Origin: Zoogloea sp.
GTDB lineage: Bacteria > Pseudomonadota > Gammaproteobacteria > Burkholderiales > Rhodocyclaceae
Assembly (NCBI RefSeq): GCF_017302315.1
Contig: NZ_JAFLDT010000008.1
Span: forward strand, 1 to 64,000
Direction: 5' to 3'
Length of the DNA: 64,000 nt
In this document: positions 4,440-37,258 of the stretch, piece by piece
How positions within the stretch are numbered: the first letter of the stretch is position 1
How the letters are laid out: each line of letters starts with the position of its first letter
The notes under the pieces: model-generated
Database searches by the model: none
Told to the model about the DNA's origin: nothing
Seen by the model: the letters and a program-made list of their open reading frames with translations, nothing else
Made by a program: the position numbers and the translations under genes

Positions 4440-4763
4440 TCAGACGGCGAAACTCTCACCGCAGCCGCATTCGGCCTTGGCATTCGGGTTGTTGAACTTG
4501 AAGCCCTCGTTGAGCCCTTCACGGACGAAGTCCAGTTCGGTGCCCTCCAGGTAGGGAAGACTGCGCGGGTCCACCAGCAGCTTGACACCGGCGCTTTCAA
4601 AGATCAGATCCTCGGGCTGGCTCTCGTCGGCAAATTCCAGGGCGTAGGCCATGCCCGAGCAGCCACTGGTCTTGACGGCGAGGCGCAGGCCGACACCCTT
4701 GCCGCGCTTGTCGAGGGTCTTCAGGATGTGCCGGGCAGCCTTCTCGGTAACGGTGACGCTCAT
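4440..4763 (-). CDS. iscA: A-type Fe-S carrier IscA
   Basis: HesB/IscA family protein of 107 residues that carries Fe or Fe-S clusters to apoproteins. The three conserved cysteines are present: TSGCSGMAY and the terminal [10 protein letters not shown]. The start at 4763 ([10 protein letters not shown]) has GAGGT about 8 bases upstream. It follows a second, different A-type carrier by 10 bases, so the operon has two tandem A-type proteins. Confidence 0.93.
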
Positions 4764-4773
4764 GATGCCGACC

Positions 4774-5127
4774 TCACACGGAGAAGGAACTGCCGCAGCC
4801 GCAGGTGCTGGTGGCGTTCGGATTGCGGATGACAAAGCGTGAGCCTTCGAGACCATCCTCGTAGTCGATCTCGGCGCCCATCAGGTACTGGGTGCTCATG
4901 GAGTCGATCAGCAGGGTGACGCCCGACTGCTCGATGCGCAGGTCATCGTCGTTGGCGACCTCGTCGAAGGAGAATCCGTACTGGAAGCCGGAGCAGCCAC
5001 CGCCACTCACATAGACGCGCAGCTTGAGTTCGGTGTTGCCCTCTTCGGCGATGAGCTCGGCAACCTTGCCGGCGGCGGCCTGGGTGAAGACGACGGGGGC
5101 GGGCATTTCGGTGACAGCGGTGTTCAT
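4774..5127 (-). CDS. Second A-type Fe-S carrier, ErpA/IscA-like
   Basis: 117-residue HesB-fold protein with [12 protein letters not shown] and the terminal [10 protein letters not shown], the three-cysteine signature. The sequence [15 protein letters not shown]... plus the [11 protein letters not shown] variant is closer to ErpA-type carriers than to the IscA encoded next to it. It lies between iscU and iscA, where canonical isc operons have no gene. GGAG precedes the ATG at 5127. Presumed role: cluster delivery, possibly to nitrogenase-related proteins given the operon's nif-type promoter. Confidence 0.9.
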
Positions 5128-10670: not shown

Positions 10671-10686
10671 TGTCGCAAGCCCGACA
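10671..10686. promoter_or_regulatory. NifA upstream activator site for nifB
   Basis: TGTCGCAAGCCCGACA is an exact TGT-N10-ACA site about 97 bases upstream of the nifB -24 element. Confidence 0.8.
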
Positions 10687-10782
10687 TGCGCCCTTCAGGA
10701 CACCGACGATTGTCTCGACCGCGACATTCCCCGATTTTTCCGATAGCTCCGCAACTCAATGATCTGAAAAGAAAATATGCCC

Positions 10783-10798
10783 TGGCATGGATCTGGCT
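10783..10798 (+). promoter_or_regulatory. Sigma-54 promoter of nifB
   Basis: TGGCATGGATCTGGCT has GG-N10-GC spacing, a good -24 box and a -12 box with one mismatch (TGGCT for TTGCT). It lies 58 bases before the nifB ATG. Confidence 0.75.
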
Positions 10799-10856: not shown

Positions 10857-12428
10857 ATGCAAAGCGCCTACATCAGCCTTGGTGACCTGAAAGCCAATCG
10901 CAACGCACTGGCAGAGCCCGCCGCCAGTGAATCCGCCGGAGGTTGTTCCAGCTCCGGCGGGTCCGGCAAGTCCAGCTGTGGTTCGTCGGGTGGCCCCGAC
11001 GACATGCCTTCCGAGATCTGGGACAAGGTCAAGAACCACCCCTGTTACTCGGAAGAGGCCCACCACCACTTTGCCCGCATGCACGTGGCGGTTGCACCGG
11101 CCTGCAACATCCAGTGCAACTACTGCAATCGCAAGTACGACTGCAGTAACGAGAGTCGCCCGGGTGTGGTCAGCCAGAAGCTCACCCCCGACCAGGCGGT
11201 GAAGAAGGTGCTGGCCGTGGCCAGCGAGATTCCCCAGATGACCGTGCTCGGCATTGCCGGCCCTGGTGATGCCCTGGCCAACCCGAAGAAGACCTTCGAC
11301 ACCATGCGCCAGCTCACCGAGAAGGCGCCGGACATCAAGCTGTGTCTCTCTACCAATGGCCTGGCCCTGCCGGAGATGGTGGACGAGATCTGCAAGCACA
11401 ACATCGATCACGTGACCATCACCATCAACATGGTGGACCCGGAGATCGGCGCCAAGATCTACCCGTGGATCTTCTGGAACCACAAGCGGGTCACCGGCGT
11501 CGAGGCCGCCCGCATCCTGCACGAACAGCAGATGAAGGGCCTGGAGATGCTCACCGCCCGCGGCGTGCTCACCAAGATCAATTCGGTGCTGATCCCCGGC
11601 ATCAACGATGAGCACCTGATTGAGGTGAACCGCGAAGTCAAGAAACGCGGCGCATTCCTGCACAACATCATGCCGCTGATCAGTGAGGCTGAGCACGGTA
11701 CCCACTTCGGCCTCACCGGCCAGCGTGGCCCCACCGCCCAGGAGCTGAAGGCCGTGCAGGACGCCTGCATGGGCGGCGCCAACCTGATGCGTCACTGCCG
11801 CCAGTGCCGCGCCGACGCGGTCGGCCTGCTCGGCGAAGACCGTAGTGAAGAGTTCACCCTCGACAAGATCGAGGAGATGGACATCGTCTATGACATCGAC
11901 AAGCGTCGCGCCTACCAGGAGAAGGTCGAGGCCGAGCGCCAGGCCCAGCACCAGGCCAAGGTGGATGCCCTGGCCGATGCCCTCGACGCCAGCCTGATCG
12001 CCGGCCAGGAAGACTTGAAGGTGCTGGTGGCCGTCGCCACCGAAGGCCAGGGCCGGGTGAATCAACACTTCGGCCACGCCACCGAGTTCCAGATCTTCGA
12101 AGTCAGCCGCAAGGAAGCCCTGTTTGTCGGCCACCGTCGTGTGGATCTGTACTGCCAGGGTGGCTACGGCGAGGACGAGCAACTGCCCTCCATCGTCAAT
12201 GCCATCAACGACTGCCACGCCGTGCTGGTCTCCAAGATCGGTGCCTGCCCCCGCGATGAACTGAAGGCAGCCGGCATCGAGCCGGTCGAGGAGTACGCCC
12301 ACGAGTTCATCGAGAAGGCTGCGCTGAACTGGTTTGCCGACTACTGCACTCGCGTGGCCAGCGGCGCCATCGTCCATCAGGAGCGCGGTGATGCCCGCAT
12401 CCGCCAGGGCGCCGTGATGGCGGCCTGA
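10857..12428 (+). CDS. nifB: Nitrogenase cofactor biosynthesis protein NifB
   Basis: Radical-SAM enzyme that fuses two [4Fe-4S] units and inserts carbide to make NifB-co, the precursor of FeMo-co. 523 residues. A Ser/Gly/Cys-rich N-terminal segment (about 25-50) is followed by the radical-SAM motif CNIQCNYC near residue 82, then the C-terminal NifX/NafY-like domain ([20 protein letters not shown] near 395-415). Further conserved cysteines are seen in [20 protein letters not shown] at 10841-10848 supports the ATG at 10857; the open frame continues upstream without a credible start. It heads a tight gene run extending to 15382. Confidence 0.98.
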
Positions 12429-15382: not shown

Positions 15383-15477
15383 GGAGGGGGCGATGAGGCG
15401 CGTTTGGTTTGGGAAGGGGGTGGATCGATTCGCCCTAAGGCGGGCTGTTGGCAAGAATTCCCGTTTGATGCGTCACG

Positions 15478-15969
15478 TTGGCCGGGTCTCGCCCCGGCGG
15501 GCGACCTACTTCTTTGTCGCACGACAAAGAAGTAGGCAAGAAAGCGTGCCCCGCTGCCGCGCCCCCTTCGGGGGTTCCCTCCTTCCGGCGATGCCGGGCG
15601 GGGTCTTCGCAAACTCGCCCTTCGGGCTCAAACATGCGAAGCCCTTTTTCCGCCCGTCATCACCTCCAGTCGGCACGTCAGAGGGGACAGGAAAGGCAGG
15701 TGATCAACGGTCAGTGCCAATCGATCTGTCCGCAGGGGCTCGGTGCATCCGGAAAGCCCGTTCCGATCCGCCGAGCAGCGCACCAGCGGGCGGGGCCTTC
15801 CGGTGCGGCTGTTTGAGCCGGCGTAGCCGGCGAGTTCCGCACCGGCCGCCTGCTGGGAGCAGCGCAGGGCAGTCGGCCGCAGGCCGACCGGTGAGGCGGG
15901 TCGCCTTCTTTGCCTTCTTTCTTGGCGACGCAAGAAAGAAGGTCGCCCGCCGGGGCGAGACCCGGCCAA
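15478..15969. repeat. About 490-bp element with 30-bp terminal inverted repeats
   Basis: Outer repeats 15478-15507 and 15940-15969 are exact inverted copies (30 bp). Just inside each is a second palindrome: a 15-bp stem at 15505-15536 and a 12-bp stem at 15913-15942. The interior has no credible gene, although several frames stay open. It looks like a non-autonomous, REPIN- or MITE-like intergenic element sitting between the DUF3024 gene and nifS. Confidence 0.75.
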
Positions 15970-16064
15970 TGCAACTGATTTATCCGGAAAGCCTTGCAGT
16001 AAAGGCTCTGTCATTCCTGAGTCCGGGGGCATTGGCGTCCCCGCTGCCAACGTAGGCACCCCCC

Positions 16065-17204
16065 ATGATCTACCTGGACAACAACGCCACCACCCGCCCC
16101 CTGCCTGAAGTCGTGGCGGCCATGCACGAGGCCCTGACCCAGAGCTGGGCCAACCCCTCGTCGAAGCATGTGGCCGGCGAGCAGGCCCGCGGCAAGGTGA
16201 CCGAGGCCCGCGCGGCGGTTGCCCGGCTGCTGGGTGCCCAGCCGGCCGAGCTGGTGTTCACCGCCAGCGCCACCGAGGCCAATGCCATGGCCCTGCATGC
16301 GGCACTGGCCGTGCCGGGAGCGCCGCGCCGGGTGGTGCTGTCGGCGGTGGAGCACTCCGGTCTCGTGCATGTGGCCAAGGTGCTGGCCGGGCAGGGCGTG
16401 GAGATCCTGCGGCTGCCGGTGGATGCGCATGGCGTCGTGCGCTGTGAAACCCTGCCGGCCCTGCTTGAAGGCGGCGCGGCCCTGGTGTCGGTGATGGCGG
16501 CCAACAACGAGACCGGCGTGATTCAGCCGGTGGCCGAGGTGCTGCGGCTGGCGAGCGCCGCAGGCGTTCCGGTGCATGTGGACGCCACCCAGGCGGCGGG
16601 GCGCATCCCGGTGGATTTTGCAGGCCTGGGCGCGCGCTTCCTCACGGCTTCGGCCCACAAGCTGCATGGCCCCAAGGGGGTGGGTGTGCTGGTGGTGAAG
16701 AAGGGCGCGCCCTTTGAGTCCCTTTTGCCCGGCTACCAGGAACGCAAGCGCCGTGGCGGTACCGAAAACGTGCCGGGCATCGTGGGTTTTGGGGTTGCCG
16801 CCCGCCATGCGGAGACGGCCTTTGCCGAGGCTTCCCGTATTGCAGCCCTGCGCGACGCCCTCGAGGCGGGTCTGGGCGAAGCCCTGCCGGGGGTTCGCGT
16901 GTTCGGTGCCGGTGCGCCGCGCCTGCCGAACACCGCTTGCATGGCCTTCGGGCTGCTGGATGCGGACGTGGTGCTGCAGCGTCTGGCGCGCGCCGGCATC
17001 TGCGTGTCGAGTGGCTCGGCGTGCAGTTCGGGGGGCACCGAGCCTTCCCCGGTACTGCTGGCCATGGGCACGGAGGTGGCGGCCGCGCGCGCGGCAGTGC
17101 GCTTCTCCCTGTCTGCCGAGACCACACCGGCCGAGATCGCCTGCGTCATCGAAACCCTGCAGGCCGCCCTGACACCGCTGCTGGCCGAAGCCTTTACCGC
17201 ATGA
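16065..17204 (+). CDS. nifS: Cysteine desulfurase NifS
   Basis: PLP-dependent sulfur donor for nitrogenase Fe-S clusters. YLDNNATTRPLPEV opens the protein; the Schiff-base lysine is in SAHKLHGPKG and the persulfide cysteine in SSGSACSSGG. 379 residues, shorter than the window's IscS and of NifS type. The ATG at 16065 has no strong ribosome site. No nifU follows, so the partner scaffold may be IscU from 5139-5561. Confidence 0.93.
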   Translation: MIYLDNNATTRPLPEVVAAMHEALTQSWANPSSKHVAGEQARGKVTEARAAVARLLGAQPAELVFTASATEANAMALHAALAVPGAPRRVVLSAVEHSGLVHVAKVLAGQGVEILRLPVDAHGVVRCETLPALLEGGAALVSVMAANNETGVIQPVAEVLRLASAAGVPVHVDATQAAGRIPVDFAGLGARFLTASAHKLHGPKGVGVLVVKKGAPFESLLPGYQERKRRGGTENVPGIVGFGVAARHAETAFAEASRIAALRDALEAGLGEALPGVRVFGAGAPRLPNTACMAFGLLDADVVLQRLARAGICVSSGSACSSGGTEPSPVLLAMGTEVAAARAAVRFSLSAETTPAEIACVIETLQAALTPLLAEAFTA

Positions 17205-17246
17205 CCCGTATCTGAACCGCATTATTTCAACTTCAGGAGCCTCACC

Positions 17247-17456
17247 ATGAAAGTCATGCTGCGCAACACCCCCCAGGGCCTGTCGGCCTATGTGCCCAAG
17301 AAAGACCTGGAAGAGCCCGTCGTGGCCCAGGAGAACGCCGGACTGTGGGGCGGCACCATCACCCTGGCCAATGGCTGGATCCTGGCCCTGCCTGAAATGG
17401 CTGCCGAAACCCGCCTGCCCATCACGGTCGAGGCACGCAAGGTCGGGGGTGAATGA
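17247..17456 (+). CDS. nifT: NifT/FixU protein
   Basis: 69-residue protein with the NifT signature: MKVMLR...GLSAYVPKKDLEEPVV and WGGTITLANGWILALPEM. Its function is not settled and it is dispensable in tested diazotrophs. The CAGGAG ribosome site is at 17234-17239. It overlaps the next gene by 4 bases. Confidence 0.93.
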   Translation: MKVMLRNTPQGLSAYVPKKDLEEPVVAQENAGLWGGTITLANGWILALPEMAAETRLPITVEARKVGGE

Positions 17457-17719
17457 TGGCCCTCACCACCGATGACCTTGCTGCGCTGGTGAGCCTGGGC
17501 AATTCGGCGCCCGACATCGCCACCCTCGCGGCCGAAGCCCGTGCCCGCTGGAGCGGACTGCGTGTCACCGTGGTGGATGCCCTCGACGTGCGGGGGGAAA
17601 CCCCGGCCTTTGAGACGGCCGCCGCCAATGTCTTCCTCATGGGGTGCGACGGCCATTGCTGGTCGATGACCGCCGATCCCGCCGCTGCTGCCGGTCTCGT
17701 GCTGGCGGCCAGGAGCTGA
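17453..17719 (+). CDS. Small nif-cluster protein, DUF6129-like
   Basis: 88 residues, or 87 from the second Met at 17456, soluble. The C-terminal GHCWSMTADPAAAAGLVLA matches the pattern I associate with DUF6129 proteins of nif clusters; the N-terminal half is a short helical segment. No catalytic motif is visible apart from two cysteines in MGCDGHC. It is translationally coupled to nifT and two bases from the DegT-like gene. Function unknown. Confidence 0.6.
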   Translation: MMALTTDDLAALVSLGNSAPDIATLAAEARARWSGLRVTVVDALDVRGETPAFETAAANVFLMGCDGHCWSMTADPAAAAGLVLAARS

Positions 17720-17721
17720 TC

Positions 17722-18918
17722 ATGGATGCCCCCGTCAACCCTCCGGACGTGGATCACGACGAGGATTGGATCCTGCTGACCGACCCGGACGTCAGCGGCC
17801 GTGAATTGGAGCGGGTGATCCGGGCCCTGCGCAGCTCGCGCCTCTCTGCCGGGCCGCTGGTCGAGGACTTCGAGGCCGAGTTCGCCGCTCATCACGGCCG
17901 TGCCTATGGCGTTGCCACCGCCAGCGGCACCATCGGCATGTGGCTGGCTCTGCGTGCTTTGGGTATCGGGCCGGGGGATGAGGTGGTGGCCTGCAGCTAC
18001 GGCTGGCACCAGACCGCCCACGCCATCCTGCTTGCCGGCGCCACCCCCAATTTTGCCGAGATCGACTATTGGTCCGGGTGCATTTCGCCGTCTGCCGCAG
18101 CCGACCGCATCGGGCCCAAGACCAAGGCCATCATCGGCAACAACTGCAACGGCCACCCGGCGGCCTGGAAAGCCCTGCGCCAACTGGCCGAGTCCCGGGG
18201 TGTGGCCTTGCTGGAGGACTCCACCGAGGCCATCGGCTCGCGCTACCTGGGCAAACCGGTGGGCAGCTTCGGCGATCTGTCGGTGTTCGACTTCTCCCAG
18301 CCTGGCGCCCTGTGCTGCGGCGAGGGCGGCATGGTGCTGACCGATGATCCTCACCTGGCCACCGAGCTGCGTTACCTGCGCGCCCATCGCCTGTCCGATC
18401 GCACTTCTGTGTCCATCGGCAGTCGTGTCCCCCTGCAGGGGGGCATGAGCGACCTCACCGCTGCCCTGGGGCTGGCCCAGCTTGAGCGCATCGACGAGAT
18501 TCTGGCTCGCCGCAAGCAGGTGGAGGCCTTTTACCGGGACGAGATGCAGAGCTTCGAGGGCATCAAGCCCCCTTACCTGGGGCCTGACGTGGATGAGGTG
18601 CACTGGATGCTCTACGTGGTGCACCTTGGGGCGCGCTTCAGTGCCAGCTCCCGCGCCCAGATCGTGGATGACCTGGAGGCCGATCTCATCGAAGCCGCAC
18701 CTTTCAGTGCCCTCATGCACCAGCAGTTTGCCTATCAGGCCCTGGGCGAAGCCTACAACTGCAAGCGTGGCTGCCTGAAGAACACCGAACGCATCGGCGA
18801 CCGTTCCCTGGCGCTGCCCTTCTACGGGCAGTTGGGCGCCGACGAGGTCAAGTTCCTGGTCAAGACACTCAAGGACGCCTGTACCAATGTGGGTGCCGGC
18901 GCCGCGATCTACCTGTAA
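17722..18918 (+). CDS. DegT/DnrJ/EryC1-fold protein lacking the PLP lysine
   Basis: 398-residue member of the sugar-aminotransferase fold family (ATASGTIGMWLALRALGIGPGDEVV; GNNCNGHPA; LLEDSTEAIGSRYLGKPVGSFGDLS). In the family the active-site lysine sits in a motif such as FSFHPVKNITTGEGG; here the segment reads FDFSQPGALCCGEGG, with Gly at the lysine position and no lysine nearby. The aspartate that contacts the PLP ring nitrogen (EDSTEA) is kept. So it cannot act as an ordinary aminotransferase and may be a pseudo-enzyme or a carrier. Related genes occur in other nif clusters; role unknown. GGAG is at 17712-17715. Confidence 0.85.
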   Translation: MDAPVNPPDVDHDEDWILLTDPDVSGRELERVIRALRSSRLSAGPLVEDFEAEFAAHHGRAYGVATASGTIGMWLALRALGIGPGDEVVACSYGWHQTAHAILLAGATPNFAEIDYWSGCISPSAAADRIGPKTKAIIGNNCNGHPAAWKALRQLAESRGVALLEDSTEAIGSRYLGKPVGSFGDLSVFDFSQPGALCCGEGGMVLTDDPHLATELRYLRAHRLSDRTSVSIGSRVPLQGGMSDLTAALGLAQLERIDEILARRKQVEAFYRDEMQSFEGIKPPYLGPDVDEVHWMLYVVHLGARFSASSRAQIVDDLEADLIEAAPFSALMHQQFAYQALGEAYNCKRGCLKNTERIGDRSLALPFYGQLGADEVKFLVKTLKDACTNVGAGAAIYL

Positions 18919-18935
18919 GACACCCGAGGTTTCCC

Positions 18936-19814
18936 ATGACAACCACTCTCGCCACTCCCGATATCGCTCCTTCCGCCATCCTGCCCGACGGTCTTCCCGT
19001 CAGCCTGGTCGAGGCCCTGGCCGCAGGTCGCGTGGTGCCTTATCTCGGCCCGCGCGTGCTCGCCCTGGCCCCCGACTATGCGGTGCCGGCCACCCCCGAA
19101 GCGCTGGTGACCCAGCTCACGGCCAAGAGCTCCGTGCCCCACAAGATCCGCAACCGGCTTACCCAGTCGGCCCAGTACATCGAGAACTTCAAGCACCGCA
19201 AGACCCTGGTGGGGCTGATGAACGAGGCCTTTGCAGCGCCACCCAAGCCGGCTCCCCTGCATGAAAGCCTCGCCGGCTTCGGCTTTCCGCTGATCGTCGA
19301 CGCCTGGTACGACGATGCCATGGCCACGGCCCTGGCCGCCCATGCCCCCACCGGTAGCTGGGGGCAGGTCCAGGGGCTGGCCCAATCCGAGCATTTCGGT
19401 ACCTGGACGGGGTGGTATGACGCGGCGGGCAATGCCGTGCCCGACTGCAACCCGGACTGGAAGACCATCCTCTACAAGCCCATCGGTGCCCATGGCCCGG
19501 CGGGTAACTATCTGGTGTCGGATACCGATTACGTGGAAGTGCTGACCGAGATCGACATTCAGACGCCGATTCCGGTGGAAGTCCAGCGCCTGCGCACGGG
19601 CAGCAACTTCCTGTTCGTGGGTTGCCGCTTCAATGATCAGCTTCCCCGCGCCTTTGCCCGCCAGATCATGAAGCGTTCGTCGGACCGCCATTGGGCAGTG
19701 CTGCCCGACGAACCGACCCGCATGGAAGCGCGCTTCCTCGCCGAGCAGGGGATCGAGCGCATCCCCTTGTCCCTGGACGTATTCGTTCCCGCCCTTCTGG
19801 CCCGTCTGGGCTGA
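18936..19814 (+). CDS. SIR2-like domain protein of the nif cluster
   Basis: 292 residues. The N-terminal GRVVPYLGPRVLAL is a variant of the (V/L)PFxGAG nucleotide loop of SIR2-like proteins; the C-terminal NFLFVGCRFNDQLPRAFARQI and RIPLSLDVF fit the family's closing motifs. The glycine-rich NAD loop is degenerate (GPR for GAG), so catalysis is doubtful. No membrane segment. It follows the DegT-like gene by 17 bases and precedes a ferredoxin. The neighbouring dra operon is also NAD-linked, which makes a nucleotide-sensing role possible but unproven. Confidence 0.72.
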   Translation: MTTTLATPDIAPSAILPDGLPVSLVEALAAGRVVPYLGPRVLALAPDYAVPATPEALVTQLTAKSSVPHKIRNRLTQSAQYIENFKHRKTLVGLMNEAFAAPPKPAPLHESLAGFGFPLIVDAWYDDAMATALAAHAPTGSWGQVQGLAQSEHFGTWTGWYDAAGNAVPDCNPDWKTILYKPIGAHGPAGNYLVSDTDYVEVLTEIDIQTPIPVEVQRLRTGSNFLFVGCRFNDQLPRAFARQIMKRSSDRHWAVLPDEPTRMEARFLAEQGIERIPLSLDVFVPALLARLG

Positions 19815-19856
19815 AGGCCATTTTCGTTGTTCATCTGCAAGCAAGAAGGAATTTCC

Positions 19857-20153
19857 ATGGCTCTACTTACCATCCAGCCCTCGGGCAAGGCCGTTGAGGT
19901 CGCCGCCGGTGCCACGCTTCTCAGTGCCATCCTCGCGTCAGGAGAAAGCATCCGCCACAAGTGTGAGGGCAAGGCCGAATGTGGGAGCTGCCACATCTTC
20001 ATCCAGGAGGGCCGCAAGACCCTTCCGCGCATCCAGAAGCTCGAGAACGAAAAGCTCGATACCCTGGTGGGCGTCAGCAGCAAGTCGCGTCTGGCCTGCC
20101 AGACCCTGATGGGCGAAGAGCCCGTCACCATCGAGTTGCTCAGCTTCGTCTGA
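19857..20153 (+). CDS. [2Fe-2S] ferredoxin, nif-associated
   Basis: 98 residues with the plant/Shethna-type ligand pattern CEGKAECGSCH...RLACQ. The ATG at 19857 is preceded by AAGAAGGA. It closes the plus-strand nif run that begins at nifS. It is a likely electron carrier, either to a nif maturation enzyme or in concert with the SIR2-like/DegT-like proteins. It differs from the FeSII-like protein at 28478, which is longer and has the extra insertion. Confidence 0.88.
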   Translation: MALLTIQPSGKAVEVAAGATLLSAILASGESIRHKCEGKAECGSCHIFIQEGRKTLPRIQKLENEKLDTLVGVSSKSRLACQTLMGEEPVTIELLSFV

Positions 20154-20289
20154 GTGAGTGACGCCCGTGGGTGAGCGAACGCTCGCCTGCGGGTTCCGGT
20201 CAATGGCTTTTCGGTGATTCCGGCCACAGAGCTCATGAACGCTGCGGTTTGGCGCGTCGTCCGATGGCCGTAGCGGTGTCTACCGCTGG

Positions 20290-20379
20290 GGGCGATTTGG
20301 GGCGACTTCAGTCGCCCATCCGCGCGTCGATCACCGGCATGCCTTTGATCGAAGTCCGCGGGCGACTGAAGTCGCCCCT
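20290..20379. repeat. Pair of REP-like palindromes
   Basis: Two copies of an 18-base palindromic unit in inverted orientation: GGGCGACTTCAGTCGCCC near 20291-20310 and its reverse complement near 20360-20378. Each can fold alone or pair with the other. They lie between two convergent operons and may stop transcription from both sides. Confidence 0.65.
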
Positions 20380-20412: not shown

Positions 20413-20838
20413 TCAGGCCGAGCACTTCTTCCCCGAAATGTTGGCTGCGCATCCTTCGGTGCGCCGTCCGTCCAGTTCGGCGAGGCTTGGACTGTCCAGC
20501 CACGCCGCCACCGCGTTGGGTTCAAACCCGACGAGCTTGCGCCCGTCGGCTTCCATCAGGGGGCGGCGGATGAGCAGGGGTTCGGCAAGCAACAGGGCCA
20601 GGGCGGCATCCCGGTCGAGCTGTTCCGGTACGACTTCACCCGACTTGACCCGTGGTGCGGCACGGTTGAACCATTCGGCCACGGGCAGCGGGGCGAGGAA
20701 GGTGAGCAGGCTGTCCGCGGTCCAGGGCCAGGCGAGCAGGCTGCGGACGTCAAGGGTATGGCCGGCCGATTCGAGCCAGGCTTTCTGCTTGGCGTTGCCG
20801 CCACATCCGGGCTTTTCATAGAAGACGACGTGGGTCAT
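20413..20838 (-). CDS. ArsC/Spx-fold nitrogenase-associated protein (NifO-like)
   Basis: 141-residue thioredoxin-fold protein of the ArsC/Spx type (VVFYEKPGCGGNAKQKAWLESAGH at the N-terminus). The active-site loop reads CGGN rather than CXXC. The family includes NifO and 'nitrogenase-associated protein' and is linked to molybdenum or nitrate effects on nitrogen fixation. The extended C-terminal region (CAANISGKKCSA) has two more cysteines. It is the last gene of the globin-dra operon. Confidence 0.8.
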   Translation of the reverse strand: MTHVVFYEKPGCGGNAKQKAWLESAGHTLDVRSLLAWPWTADSLLTFLAPLPVAEWFNRAAPRVKSGEVVPEQLDRDAALALLLAEPLLIRRPLMEADGRKLVGFEPNAVAAWLDSPSLAELDGRRTEGCAANISGKKCSA

Positions 20839-20856
20839 GGGGCCTCCGGTTTGGGA

Positions 20857-21798
20857 TCAGGGCCGCGGTCTGGCGGCCAGATTCAGCAATGCGTCGGTCT
20901 GTTTGACAATGGCCGCAGCGATGGTCCGGTCGAGCCGATCGAGCCAGGCGCGGGGCAGGGCGCTGGCACCGCACTGGGCACCGTGCAGCATGCCAACAAG
21001 GGCGGCGGTGGTGTCGGCGTCGTCACCGCGATTGACGGCGCCGATAAGGGCGTCTTCGAAAGTGCTTTCGGTGAAGGTGAAATGAAAGACTGTCTGCAGG
21101 GTGTCCACCACGTAGCCACTGGCTCGCCCGGGATAGGGTTGAAAGCGGAACATGGGGTGGTCGACAACGAACGCGTCTGCGAGGGGGCGGGCCTCGGACA
21201 GGCGTCCGCCGAGCAGCAGGCGGCGGAGCAGGCGCCCGCAGATCAGGGTGGCGGCGTCGGAGAGGGCGTTGTTGTGGGTGAAGCGGGCCTGGGCCAGGCT
21301 GCGGGCTTCGAAGGCCGCTTCGTTGTGAAGAGTGGCGAGCACCACGGGCAGGTTGCGCATGACTGCGCCGTTGCCCGCGTCACCTTCGCCCGCCGGCCCG
21401 GCGAAGGAACCATCGGTCATGTAGCGACGGATACCGCGCCGGCAGGTGTTGCCGCAATCCACGGGCTTGCTGCGCAGCCACGCCACATAGGCCTCGGCAA
21501 CGGCTTTCATGCACCAGCCGTCGGCGTCGAGGATGGACTTGCCCAGGGCCAGACACATGGTCGTGTCGTCGGTGACCTGGCCCGGCGCGAGCTTGAGCCA
21601 GCCGCCCCCGGTCATGTGGCGATGGACGCCGTACTGGGCGACGATTTCCCGCGGGGTCATGAACTCGGTGGTCGCCCCCAGGGCGTCACCGATGGCCAAG
21701 CCGAGATAGGCGCCGAGGGCCTTGTCACGCAGGCTGCCGGGCCGCAGGCCGGAGGGCAGTATGGACGGATGGGTGCGCAGGAGGAGTGCATCAAGCAT
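20857..21798 (-). CDS. draG: ADP-ribosyl-[dinitrogen reductase] hydrolase DraG
   Basis: Removes ADP-ribose from NifH, restoring nitrogenase activity when ammonium is consumed. Dinuclear-metal motifs are present: GDALGATTEF, TDDTTMCLALG and NRGDDADTTAALVG. 313 residues against about 295-300, with a short extra N-terminus. The start overlaps draT by 8 bases. AmtB (35689-36891), its usual membrane-recruitment partner via PII, is also in this window. Confidence 0.96.
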   Translation of the reverse strand: MLDALLLRTHPSILPSGLRPGSLRDKALGAYLGLAIGDALGATTEFMTPREIVAQYGVHRHMTGGGWLKLAPGQVTDDTTMCLALGKSILDADGWCMKAVAEAYVAWLRSKPVDCGNTCRRGIRRYMTDGSFAGPAGEGDAGNGAVMRNLPVVLATLHNEAAFEARSLAQARFTHNNALSDAATLICGRLLRRLLLGGRLSEARPLADAFVVDHPMFRFQPYPGRASGYVVDTLQTVFHFTFTESTFEDALIGAVNRGDDADTTAALVGMLHGAQCGASALPRAWLDRLDRTIAAAIVKQTDALLNLAARPRP

Positions 21799-22660
21799 AG
21801 CGGGCCACCACTTCGTATTCGCCGCCGATCACCAGCACCTCGCCTTCTCCGGCGAGGGGGGCGCCCGGCAGCAGGCCGGGAAAGAACAGGATCTTGACCA
21901 CCGGAACGTGCGCTTCGAGGATCCAGTCGCCGAACTCGTCGGCGCGCTCGCGGGAGGTGGAAAAGGACACGATGTTGTTCAGGCGCAGGACGCAGGCACG
22001 GTCACGCCGGTCACCGGCGACCACTCGCTGCTCCGTGAAGTCGTTGATGCCGCGCCATAGGGTGACGAAATCCCGGGCGGGCTGGCCAAAGCGCTGGATG
22101 GCCCATTGGCAGTATTCAAACAGCAGATCGAGCTGCTGGTGGATGCAGTTGTTGTGGAAGCGGCTGCTGCCCTTTTCCTCGATATAGGCAATCCACGCCG
22201 GCGATGGAAACCGCCCCAGGGGCGCCTTGTGGAAGGTGGGCACCAGGCCGAAACGGCTTTCAGCCCAGCCTTTCAGTACGGCGCCAGCGGCGGAATTGGA
22301 GTCCAGCCCCCAGCCCTGCAGCAGTTTGAGGTAGCTGGAGCGATGCCGTGATCGCGGTGTGCTGCGGGTGCCGGGTTCGGGCGGTGCGATGCCGAAGACG
22401 ATCTCCATGAAGTGCCGGAAGACCGCTGAAGCGGCGGTCAGGTCTCCGGCGCTTTCGAGGAGCCGGAACAGGCCGCGGTGGGTCTCGCGAACGCCGGAAA
22501 TGGCGAATGGCTGAGGGTGGGTGTTGAAGGCCGTGGAGCCGAGCAGGCCAACCGGCAGCCCGACCAGATTGGTCGAGTACCAGCGGCCGGGATCGGTGCC
22601 CCTTCCTTCTCCGGCCCAGTCCTCAGCCACCGCCCCGCGTCGGGGCGACGGCTCGTTCAT
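21791..22660 (-). CDS. draT: NAD+-dinitrogen-reductase ADP-ribosyltransferase DraT
   Basis: Transfers ADP-ribose from NAD+ to a NifH arginine (the Arg in CAGRGVIT of the nifH product here), switching nitrogenase off. 289 residues. Family motifs seen are WYSTNLVGLPVGLLGSTAFN near residues 27-46, the catalytic-domain strand VTLWRGINDF, and NNIVSFSTSRERADEFGDWI. It pairs with draG by an 8-base overlap, as in other Dra systems. Confidence 0.95.
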   Translation of the reverse strand: MNEPSPRRGAVAEDWAGEGRGTDPGRWYSTNLVGLPVGLLGSTAFNTHPQPFAISGVRETHRGLFRLLESAGDLTAASAVFRHFMEIVFGIAPPEPGTRSTPRSRHRSSYLKLLQGWGLDSNSAAGAVLKGWAESRFGLVPTFHKAPLGRFPSPAWIAYIEEKGSSRFHNNCIHQQLDLLFEYCQWAIQRFGQPARDFVTLWRGINDFTEQRVVAGDRRDRACVLRLNNIVSFSTSRERADEFGDWILEAHVPVVKILFFPGLLPGAPLAGEGEVLVIGGEYEVVARYA

Positions 22661-24175: not shown

Positions 24176-25195
<1,020 letters not shown>

Positions 25196-37241: not shown

Positions 37242-37258
37242 TTGGCACGGGGGTTGCA
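37242..37258 (+). promoter_or_regulatory. Sigma-54 promoter of pilA
   Basis: TTGGCACGGGGGTTGCA matches the consensus TGGCACG-N4-TTGC exactly. It is 80 bases before the pilA start, as expected for PilR/RpoN-driven pilin genes. Confidence 0.92.

Follow-up and report, generated by a model that had tools for sequence, protein, structure and literature searches.

What four genes behind nifT contribute to nitrogen fixation is the question raised by the nif region of a Zoogloea sp. strain (contig NZ_JAFLDT010000008.1), of which a stretch of 64,000 nucleotides (nt), here called the window, was analysed; all coordinates are positions in the window, read on the forward strand. The four genes, all on the + strand, encode a DUF6129-like protein of 88 residues with a DGHCW motif (17453..17719), a protein with the DegT/DnrJ/EryC1/StrS fold (17722..18918; PF01041, E 4.6e-85), a SIR2_2-family protein of 292 residues (18936..19814; PF13289, E 2.3e-19) and an ISC-type [2Fe-2S] ferredoxin of 98 residues with Cys36, Cys42, Cys45 and Cys81 (19857..20153; Fer2 PF00111, E 1.6e-11). 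They follow nifT (17247..17456, +; PF06988, E 1.8e-29; TIGR02934 above cut-off) with gaps of -4, 2, 17 and 42 nt, the start of the 88-residue open reading frame (ORF) lying within the end of nifT, with an overlap of 4 nt. This layout, as well as the presence of an electron carrier in the set, had been described in an earlier note on this DNA and is borne out here for all four ORFs. It is clear that the four genes are the real, conserved tail of a nif operon with two pseudoenzymes among its products, and that the set consists of two units, nifT-SIR2, found also in rhizobia, and DUF6129-DegT-ferredoxin.

Comparison with one canonical SIR2_2 sequence (locus L193) demonstrated that the SIR2-like protein of the window has tryptophan at the position of the canonical asparagine, which we take to be catalytic, and isoleucine at that of the canonical histidine. 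At the histidine column of L193, DSR2 has H171 and KomC has H146, which the entries 8wyb and 9xvc give as altered. Not one of 143 distinct nif-type sequences, matches of fewer than 181 query positions having been left out, keeps both residues, in line with the degenerate character that the earlier note had ascribed to the protein. The 99 beta- and gammaproteobacterial sequences of group 1, the subfamily of the window protein, have tryptophan in place of the asparagine and isoleucine, leucine, tryptophan, methionine, valine or threonine in place of the histidine; the 34 group-2 sequences retain the asparagine and have methionine or leucine instead of the histidine; and in the 10 alpha-type sequences tryptophan replaces the asparagine, with the histidine kept in eight and tyrosine present in two. 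The first glycine of the GxG motif is conserved throughout (143/143) and the second in 86 of the sequences, and across 66 aligned rows 16 columns are invariant, Glu83, Arg88, Arg220 and Arg238 among them. Such conserved columns next to a broken catalytic pair suggest a re-purposed fold.

Group 1, linked to nifT, and group 2, often linked to nifH or draT, share 24–29% identity. A FastTree tree with one canonical sequence as its root shows group 2 as a clade with a support of 1.0 and group 1 together with the alpha-type sequences another with a support of 0.86, the beta- and gammaproteobacterial group 1 by itself not being a clade. One SIR2 match per positive genome was found in three sets of 26, 17 and 29 positive genomes, and full-length copies of both subfamilies in one genome occurred in none of these sets. 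Short second matches (L124–L126), possibly remnants, were seen in three genomes (G102, G257 and G310) that carry a full copy at another site.

The occurrence of the family follows nitrogen fixation. In the class sample of 369 Gammaproteobacteria genomes, 32 were nifH-positive (31 above cut-off and one fragment) and 337 nifH-negative, and the SIR2 family was detected in 27 of the former versus two of the latter (Fisher p 1e-33, kinship ignored); these 29 carriers split into 10 of group 1, 18 of group 2 and an odd one. The phylum sample comprised 398 genomes, and its 17 carriers were distributed over 14 of the 40 nifH-positive genomes (38 above cut-off and two fragments) versus three of the 358 others. 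As to the nifH-negative carriers, G632 of the class sample has a canonical SIR2 protein that keeps both residues and G733 has its gene at a contig edge, while in the phylum sample G102 and G310 show the order nifB-nifZ-nifT-SIR2 and the 12 kb examined in G127 contain no nif gene. A nif gene was present in the same 12–20 kb stretch as the SIR2 gene at 17 of 18 loci and then at six of seven further nif-type loci. The SIR2 family is largely confined to diazotrophs, and none of its nif-type members compared has an intact Asn/His pair.

By sequence the window protein belongs to the same SIR2_2 family as the defence NADases KomC, DSR2 and ThsA, with weak matches in the PDB to 8zsi (E 0.0056) and to KomC (8zsf, E 0.0062). 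It differs from them in being a single-domain protein that lacks the catalytic asparagine and histidine and is encoded in a nif cluster. A role in anti-phage defence was rejected in view of the nif context at nearly all loci and the absence of a PADLOC match, no family being found at E 1 for either the window protein or one group-2 protein.

A probable relative of the SIR2-like protein has been studied by mutation. PST_1325 of Pseudomonas stutzeri A1501 is labelled as SIR2 family in the accessible part of PMC11332353, and according to the sections available of PMC2820453 it is pnfA, a gene dependent on NifA and sigma-54 with a diazotroph-specific product of 31.7 kDa. The same sections report that the pnfA mutant had 23% of wild-type nitrogenase activity (Table 2), that its activity at 0.5% O2 was far below that of the wild type, that the nifH transcript was unchanged, that nitrate-supported fixation was lost, and that anaerobic activity in the absence of nitrate was wild-type-like; complementation is given there as data not shown. 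The paper distinguishes a first subfamily from a second, which comprises ten proteins with roughly 20% identity (PMC2820453). PST_1325 bears the SIR2 label and lies divergently next to nifH, and group-2 genes have a matching neighbourhood; on these grounds PnfA would be a member of group 2, which would then match the first of these subfamilies, with group 1 matching the second. PnfA and the window protein have in common the SIR2-family label, the link to nif genes, the restriction to diazotrophs and a similar size; however, pnfA diverges from nifH and has its own putative promoter, as far as PMC2820453 could be consulted, whereas the window gene lies behind nifT and the DUF6129-like and DegT-like genes.

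Other nif genes of this kind have been mentioned in the literature. In Rhodobacter capsulatus a SIR2-family protein encoded beside nifT was detected in the wild type but not in a nifA mutant (available part of PMC6925177), and a SIR2-like nif-cluster gene has been noted in Rhodovulum (available part of PMC9412634). The available portions of the Azoarcus BH72 transposon sequencing (Tn-Seq) study of nif mutants (PMC9769520) and of the transcriptome of the same strain (PMC3916325) contain no gene that could be linked to the SIR2 family, and those of a study on bog-lake diazotrophs (PMC7341956) mention neither SIR2 nor DegT. The openly licensed PMC literature yielded nothing that joins DUF6129 with nif or Tn-seq of nitrogen fixation with SIR2, no mutants of the DUF6129, DegT or ferredoxin gene and no accepted biochemical role for the set, as the earlier note had said of the latter. 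Its term "undescribed" is not supported for the set as a whole, a SIR2-family nif gene having been knocked out in P. stutzeri.

For gene order, genome contigs were scanned with the SIR2 alignment, which gave at least 565 relatives; the best 80 were kept, and 67 of these had enough flank, the remaining 13 being dropped for short flanks. The 67 loci, drawn from the best matches, lean towards close relatives. The order of the window, nifT-DUF6129-DegT-SIR2-ferredoxin, is present at 38 of them and recurs among many beta- and gammaproteobacterial diazotrophs. Taken singly, nifT is found at all 67 loci, the DegT-like gene at 63, the gene for the 88-residue protein at 56 or more and the ferredoxin gene at 49; the value of 56 is a lower bound because a plasmid locus without a match (L130) has an annotated ORF of matching length there. 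At least one of nifB, nifT, nifH and nifZ is present at 78 of the 80 loci, the exceptions being L040 and L067. Carriers of group-1 SIR2 genes include Paraburkholderia xenovorans LB400, Herbaspirillum, Azoarcus, Aromatoleum, Derxia and Rhodoferax. The ratios of non-synonymous to synonymous substitution rates (dN/dS; NG86, against Zoogloea dura) are 0.11 for the DegT-like gene, 0.12 for SIR2, 0.15 for the ferredoxin and 0.23 for the 88-residue protein, compared with 0.02 for nifH, and the four genes are therefore maintained by selection. With respect to the refuting conditions named in the earlier note, which are thus half answered, the genes are not scattered among diazotrophs and loss of pnfA does impair fixation; no mutants of the other three genes turned up.

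A single module, as that note had envisaged, is not supported. In Rhizobium etli and Sinorhizobium fredii, plasmid-borne SIR2 genes follow nifT and no DegT-like gene accompanies them, and among plasmid records 75 match the SIR2 protein and four the DegT-like protein (at E 1e-90). The SIR2 gene stands without a DegT-like gene at four of the 67 loci (L059, L061, L071 and L073). In Bradyrhizobium (L129) and in two further genomes (L148 and L151) nifB separates the DegT-like gene from SIR2, the former being accompanied by the DUF6129-like gene in L129 and L151 and by the ferredoxin gene in L148 and L151. Furthermore, in the part of PMC3899966 that could be consulted, BRADO5410 and BRADO5411, a 2Fe-2S ferredoxin and a DegT gene, are grouped under nitrogen fixation.

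The second pseudoenzyme is the DegT-like protein. Its profile aligns over nearly the full length with perosamine synthetase (3bn1, E 8.4e-64) and ArnB, so that the family of DegT/DnrJ/EryC1/StrS aminotransferases offers the closest comparison, and an active sugar aminotransferase making a glycan for protection against O2 has to be considered. The column of the 3bn1 lysine, which we take to bind pyridoxal phosphate (PLP), also has lysine in 3dr7 and alanine in 3dr4, presumably a mutant, and is occupied in the window protein by Gly195, within FDFSQPGALCCGEGG. The alignment held 87 rows, namely 83 nif-type rows (80 distinct, as three genes are present twice) and four ordinary DegT proteins, L038 having been dropped at a coverage of 0.47. 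All 83 nif-type rows have serine, glycine, leucine, alanine, glutamine or cysteine at the PLP lysine column, whereas the four ordinary proteins have lysine; Asp166, the residue presumed to serve the pyridine nitrogen, is kept in 87/87. The missing PLP lysine reported in the earlier note is confirmed across the nif-type family, and by this feature and by its link to nif the window protein departs from the aminotransferases, to which it is otherwise homologous almost from end to end and with which it shares Asp166. A working aminotransferase was rejected on this ground, and with no other sugar-nucleotide gene among the four genes the glycan explanation appears extremely improbable.

The DegT-like protein is also narrower in distribution than the SIR2 family. 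Among nifH-positive genomes of the class sample it was found at E 1e-120 in eight of 10 with group-1 SIR2, none of 17 with group-2 SIR2 and none of five without SIR2, hence in eight of 32, all of group 1; in the phylum sample it occurred in six of the 43 genomes searched, all six being SIR2-positive. In the samples searched, the protein is restricted to genomes with group-1 or alpha-type SIR2. At one locus (L165 of G674) about 320 nt of DegT-like sequence (2376–2696) lie between the SIR2 gene and the gene for the 88-residue protein, possibly a decaying copy; a genome-wide search of G674 gave no DegT match at E 1e-60.

The label DUF6129-like, used in the earlier note for the 88-residue protein, is supported by homology and not by a direct match, as the window protein matches no Pfam or NCBIfam entry at E 0.1 but shares 41% identity with a DUF6129-annotated protein of Bradyrhizobium, which passes PF19624 (25.1 vs 23.6 bits). 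Cys69 is present in all 66 aligned rows of this family, and no relative in the PDB was found up to E 5. Members were detected in 27 of the 32 nifH-positive Gammaproteobacteria genomes versus none of 18 nifH-negative ones, the latter chosen by hand (G632 and 17 others). L187 has a DUF6129-like gene (4525–4788) close to nifT; the cluster there contains a group-2 SIR2 gene and the genome gave no DegT match, so that DUF6129 is not confined to the module.

The best PDB match of the ferredoxin is 1i7h (E 2.6e-18), and cysteine occupies the four cluster columns (36, 42, 45 and 81) in 65, 62, 64 and 65 of 65 rows. The four cysteines with the same spacing and the 1i7h match place it with ISC-type Fdx, from which it differs by scoring under the TIGR02007 cut-off (65.7 vs 132.1 bits) and by its link to nif. 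The Shethna FeSII protein is likewise a [2Fe-2S] ferredoxin of a diazotroph; the window protein matches it only weakly (5ffi, E 0.0013) and is shorter (98 vs 122 residues), and O2 protection of the FeSII type was rejected for this weak match. In three Paraburkholderia loci (L063, L076 and L085, gene at 10881) the ferredoxin ORF has 146–148 residues rather than 98 and extends beyond the usual C-terminus.

A ferredoxin adjacent to the SIR2 gene at 49 of the 67 loci invites the explanation that the SIR2-fold protein binds flavin adenine dinucleotide (FAD) or nicotinamide adenine dinucleotide (NAD) in the manner of the nucleotide domain of ETF-alpha and, with the [2Fe-2S] ferredoxin, feeds electrons to nitrogenase. 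The dependence of the pnfA phenotype on O2 and nitrate would fit, as would the resemblance to UspA or ETF-alpha-like regions, at some 31% identity, that the PnfA authors noted (PMC2820453, as far as available). However, the ferredoxin comes nearest to ISC-type proteins, and a ferredoxin match was lacking at 18 of the 67 loci, at the loci of R. etli and S. fredii and around those group-2 genes that were inspected; such an electron-delivery unit is unlikely.

The module was also noted for its position next to the Dra system. On the strand opposite to the four genes (20413–22660) lie draB/nifO (20413..20838, -; ArsC-like, TIGR01616 above cut-off, the family match having been made here and the name DraB/NifO taken from the part seen of PMC5249018), draG (20857..21798, -; TIGR02662, 403 bits, above cut-off) and draT (21791..22660, -; PF07357 match 21809–22573), all three neighbours outside the module. 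Between the ferredoxin gene and draB there is a perfect 19-nt inverted repeat (20299–20317/20360–20378), and a further DraT match, a partial one (E 1.7e-85), lies at the edge of another contig of the same genome (G000:C38:15-647).

With draB, draG and draT adjoining the module, and with draT within the 1.5 kb flanks of 11 of 13 group-2 SIR2 loci among close relatives and beside group-2 SIR2 in further loci, the set could be an accessory of DraT/DraG, a sensor of NAD or ADP-ribose that tunes the ADP-ribosylation of NifH. The adjacency reported in the earlier note is true of the window but not general. DraT (PF07357) was found in 14 of 28 group-1 carriers, which were picked by hand from the 80 and are mostly isolates, genome completeness not being given; no match was found in the other 14, L036, L048, L051, L052, L055, L057, L063, L066, L070, L072, L076, L083, L085 and L100. 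In the class sample, DraT accompanies nifH in 13 of 27 SIR2-positive genomes, leaving 14 without, vs four of five SIR2-negative genomes (p 0.34), and by subfamily it is present in four of 10 with group 1 and nine of 18 with group 2. Among the 40 nifH-positive genomes of the phylum sample it is rarer with SIR2 (5/14) than without (22/26; p 0.004, kinship ignored). A general tie between SIR2 and draT was rejected, as it is seen among close relatives only and lost in the wider samples; neither unit appears to be coupled to the DraT/DraG switch, and the Dra-accessory explanation is very improbable.

Nitrogenase switch-off without draT/draG has been reported for Herbaspirillum seropedicae (available part of PMC3023670), and on/off switching without these genes for P. 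stutzeri A1501 (available part of PMC2820453). A role in DraT-independent control therefore remains to be weighed, in which the SIR2-like protein would mediate or tune switch-off as an effector responsive to NAD(H) or energy. A1501 has a SIR2-family nif gene, Herbaspirillum sp. AP02, a strain other than H. seropedicae SmR1, has the module and no DraT match, and in Zymomonas mobilis, according to the accessible part of PMC8594446, the nif cluster includes a SIR2-like gene and draT/draG are not annotated. Against this stand the presence of DraT in about half of the carriers as well and the phenotype of the pnfA mutant, which loses activity, not inhibition, and whose switch-off is not described there (PMC2820453, as far as available), and such an effector is judged distinctly unlikely.

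The nif region 5' of the four genes comprises nifA, nifB, a short ferredoxin, an IscA-like protein, an LRV protein, nifZ, a DUF3024 gene, a NifS-like gene and nifT. The NifS-like cysteine desulfurase gene (16065..17204, +) scores 392.7 bits with TIGR03402, under the cut-off of 530.75. A candidate operon promoter (10671..10798, +) precedes nifB and consists of two NifA-type sites TGT-N10-ACA (10671–10686 and 10711–10726) and a -24/-12 site with two mismatches (10783–10798). This pairing resembles the region upstream of nifH (24014, 24043 and 24139), where a perfect -24/-12 box lies ahead of the gene, which starts at 24314; the nifB promoter is merely suggestive because each pattern singly is no commoner than in shuffled sequence. 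A sigma-54 promoter belonging to the module itself was rejected, as 16000–20300 contains only two sites with two mismatches each and the SIR2 gene itself is preceded by no good site. A perfect sigma-54 -24/-12 match was seen at 37243–37258, far from the module.

Taken as a whole, the best explanation of the locus is that of nif accessory pseudoenzymes which sustain nitrogenase after transcription during respiration, joined by a maturation unit, a reading about as liable to fail as to hold. The four genes would be the tail of a nif accessory operon, perhaps read from the NifA/sigma-54 promoter before nifB. In the first unit, with nifT, the SIR2-like protein would do a job like that of PnfA, keeping nitrogenase active post-transcriptionally while O2 or nitrate is respired; it would probably bind a nucleotide such as NAD(H) and contact nitrogenase or its electron supply, presumably without catalysis. 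In the second unit, the DegT-like protein, encoded with the DUF6129-like protein and the ISC-type ferredoxin, could act alongside the NifS-like desulfurase and the ferredoxin in metallocluster maturation, with no catalytic activity of its own. This role is the simplest guess because a NifS-like match lies within 4 kb at 60 of the 67 loci.

Several observations weigh against this explanation. No SIR2-family match was found in five of the 32 nifH-positive Gammaproteobacteria genomes and in 26 of the 40 nifH-positive genomes of the phylum sample, and the family is therefore not essential for fixation; in both samples at most six candidates were scored per genome, so that some matches and second copies may have been overlooked. 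At two nif-type loci (L145 and L192) the stretch examined shows no nif gene. The alpha-type proteins mostly keep the histidine and those of group 2 the asparagine, and therefore some NAD chemistry stays possible. The likely identity of PnfA with group 2 was drawn from label and neighbourhood, and group 1 is merely 24–29% identical to group 2. The desulfurase link is one of co-location only and the partnership a guess. Finally, the DUF3024 and NifS-like genes are separated by a gap of 682 nt (15383–16064), which contains terminator-like stems and a 59-nt imperfect inverted repeat (15458–15516/15931–15989), while hardly any distance lies between these genes in Zoogloea dura (L029); co-transcription from nifB is therefore uncertain in the Zoogloea sp. 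strain, and read-through may be weakened.

A bolder proposal would make the SIR2-like protein a nucleotide-sensing pseudoenzyme near the core of gamma- and betaproteobacterial fixation, the missing NAD(H) or energy effector in DraT-free diazotrophs, and the DegT-like protein a second sensor or scaffold in metallocluster assembly; this is thought quite improbable. A mutant of what is probably a SIR2 relative, pnfA, has already been published, and the surprising part would be how widespread a catalytically broken SIR2 family appears to be. If the preferred explanation of respiration-linked accessory pseudoenzymes is right, a family present in most of the sampled gamma- and betaproteobacterial fixers (27/32) carries a sirtuin-like label without the catalytic pair. 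The finding may then bear on the upkeep of nitrogenase during respiration and on switch-off where DraT/DraG are missing, and, since accessory genes are easily omitted, it may matter when nif gene sets are transferred to new hosts.

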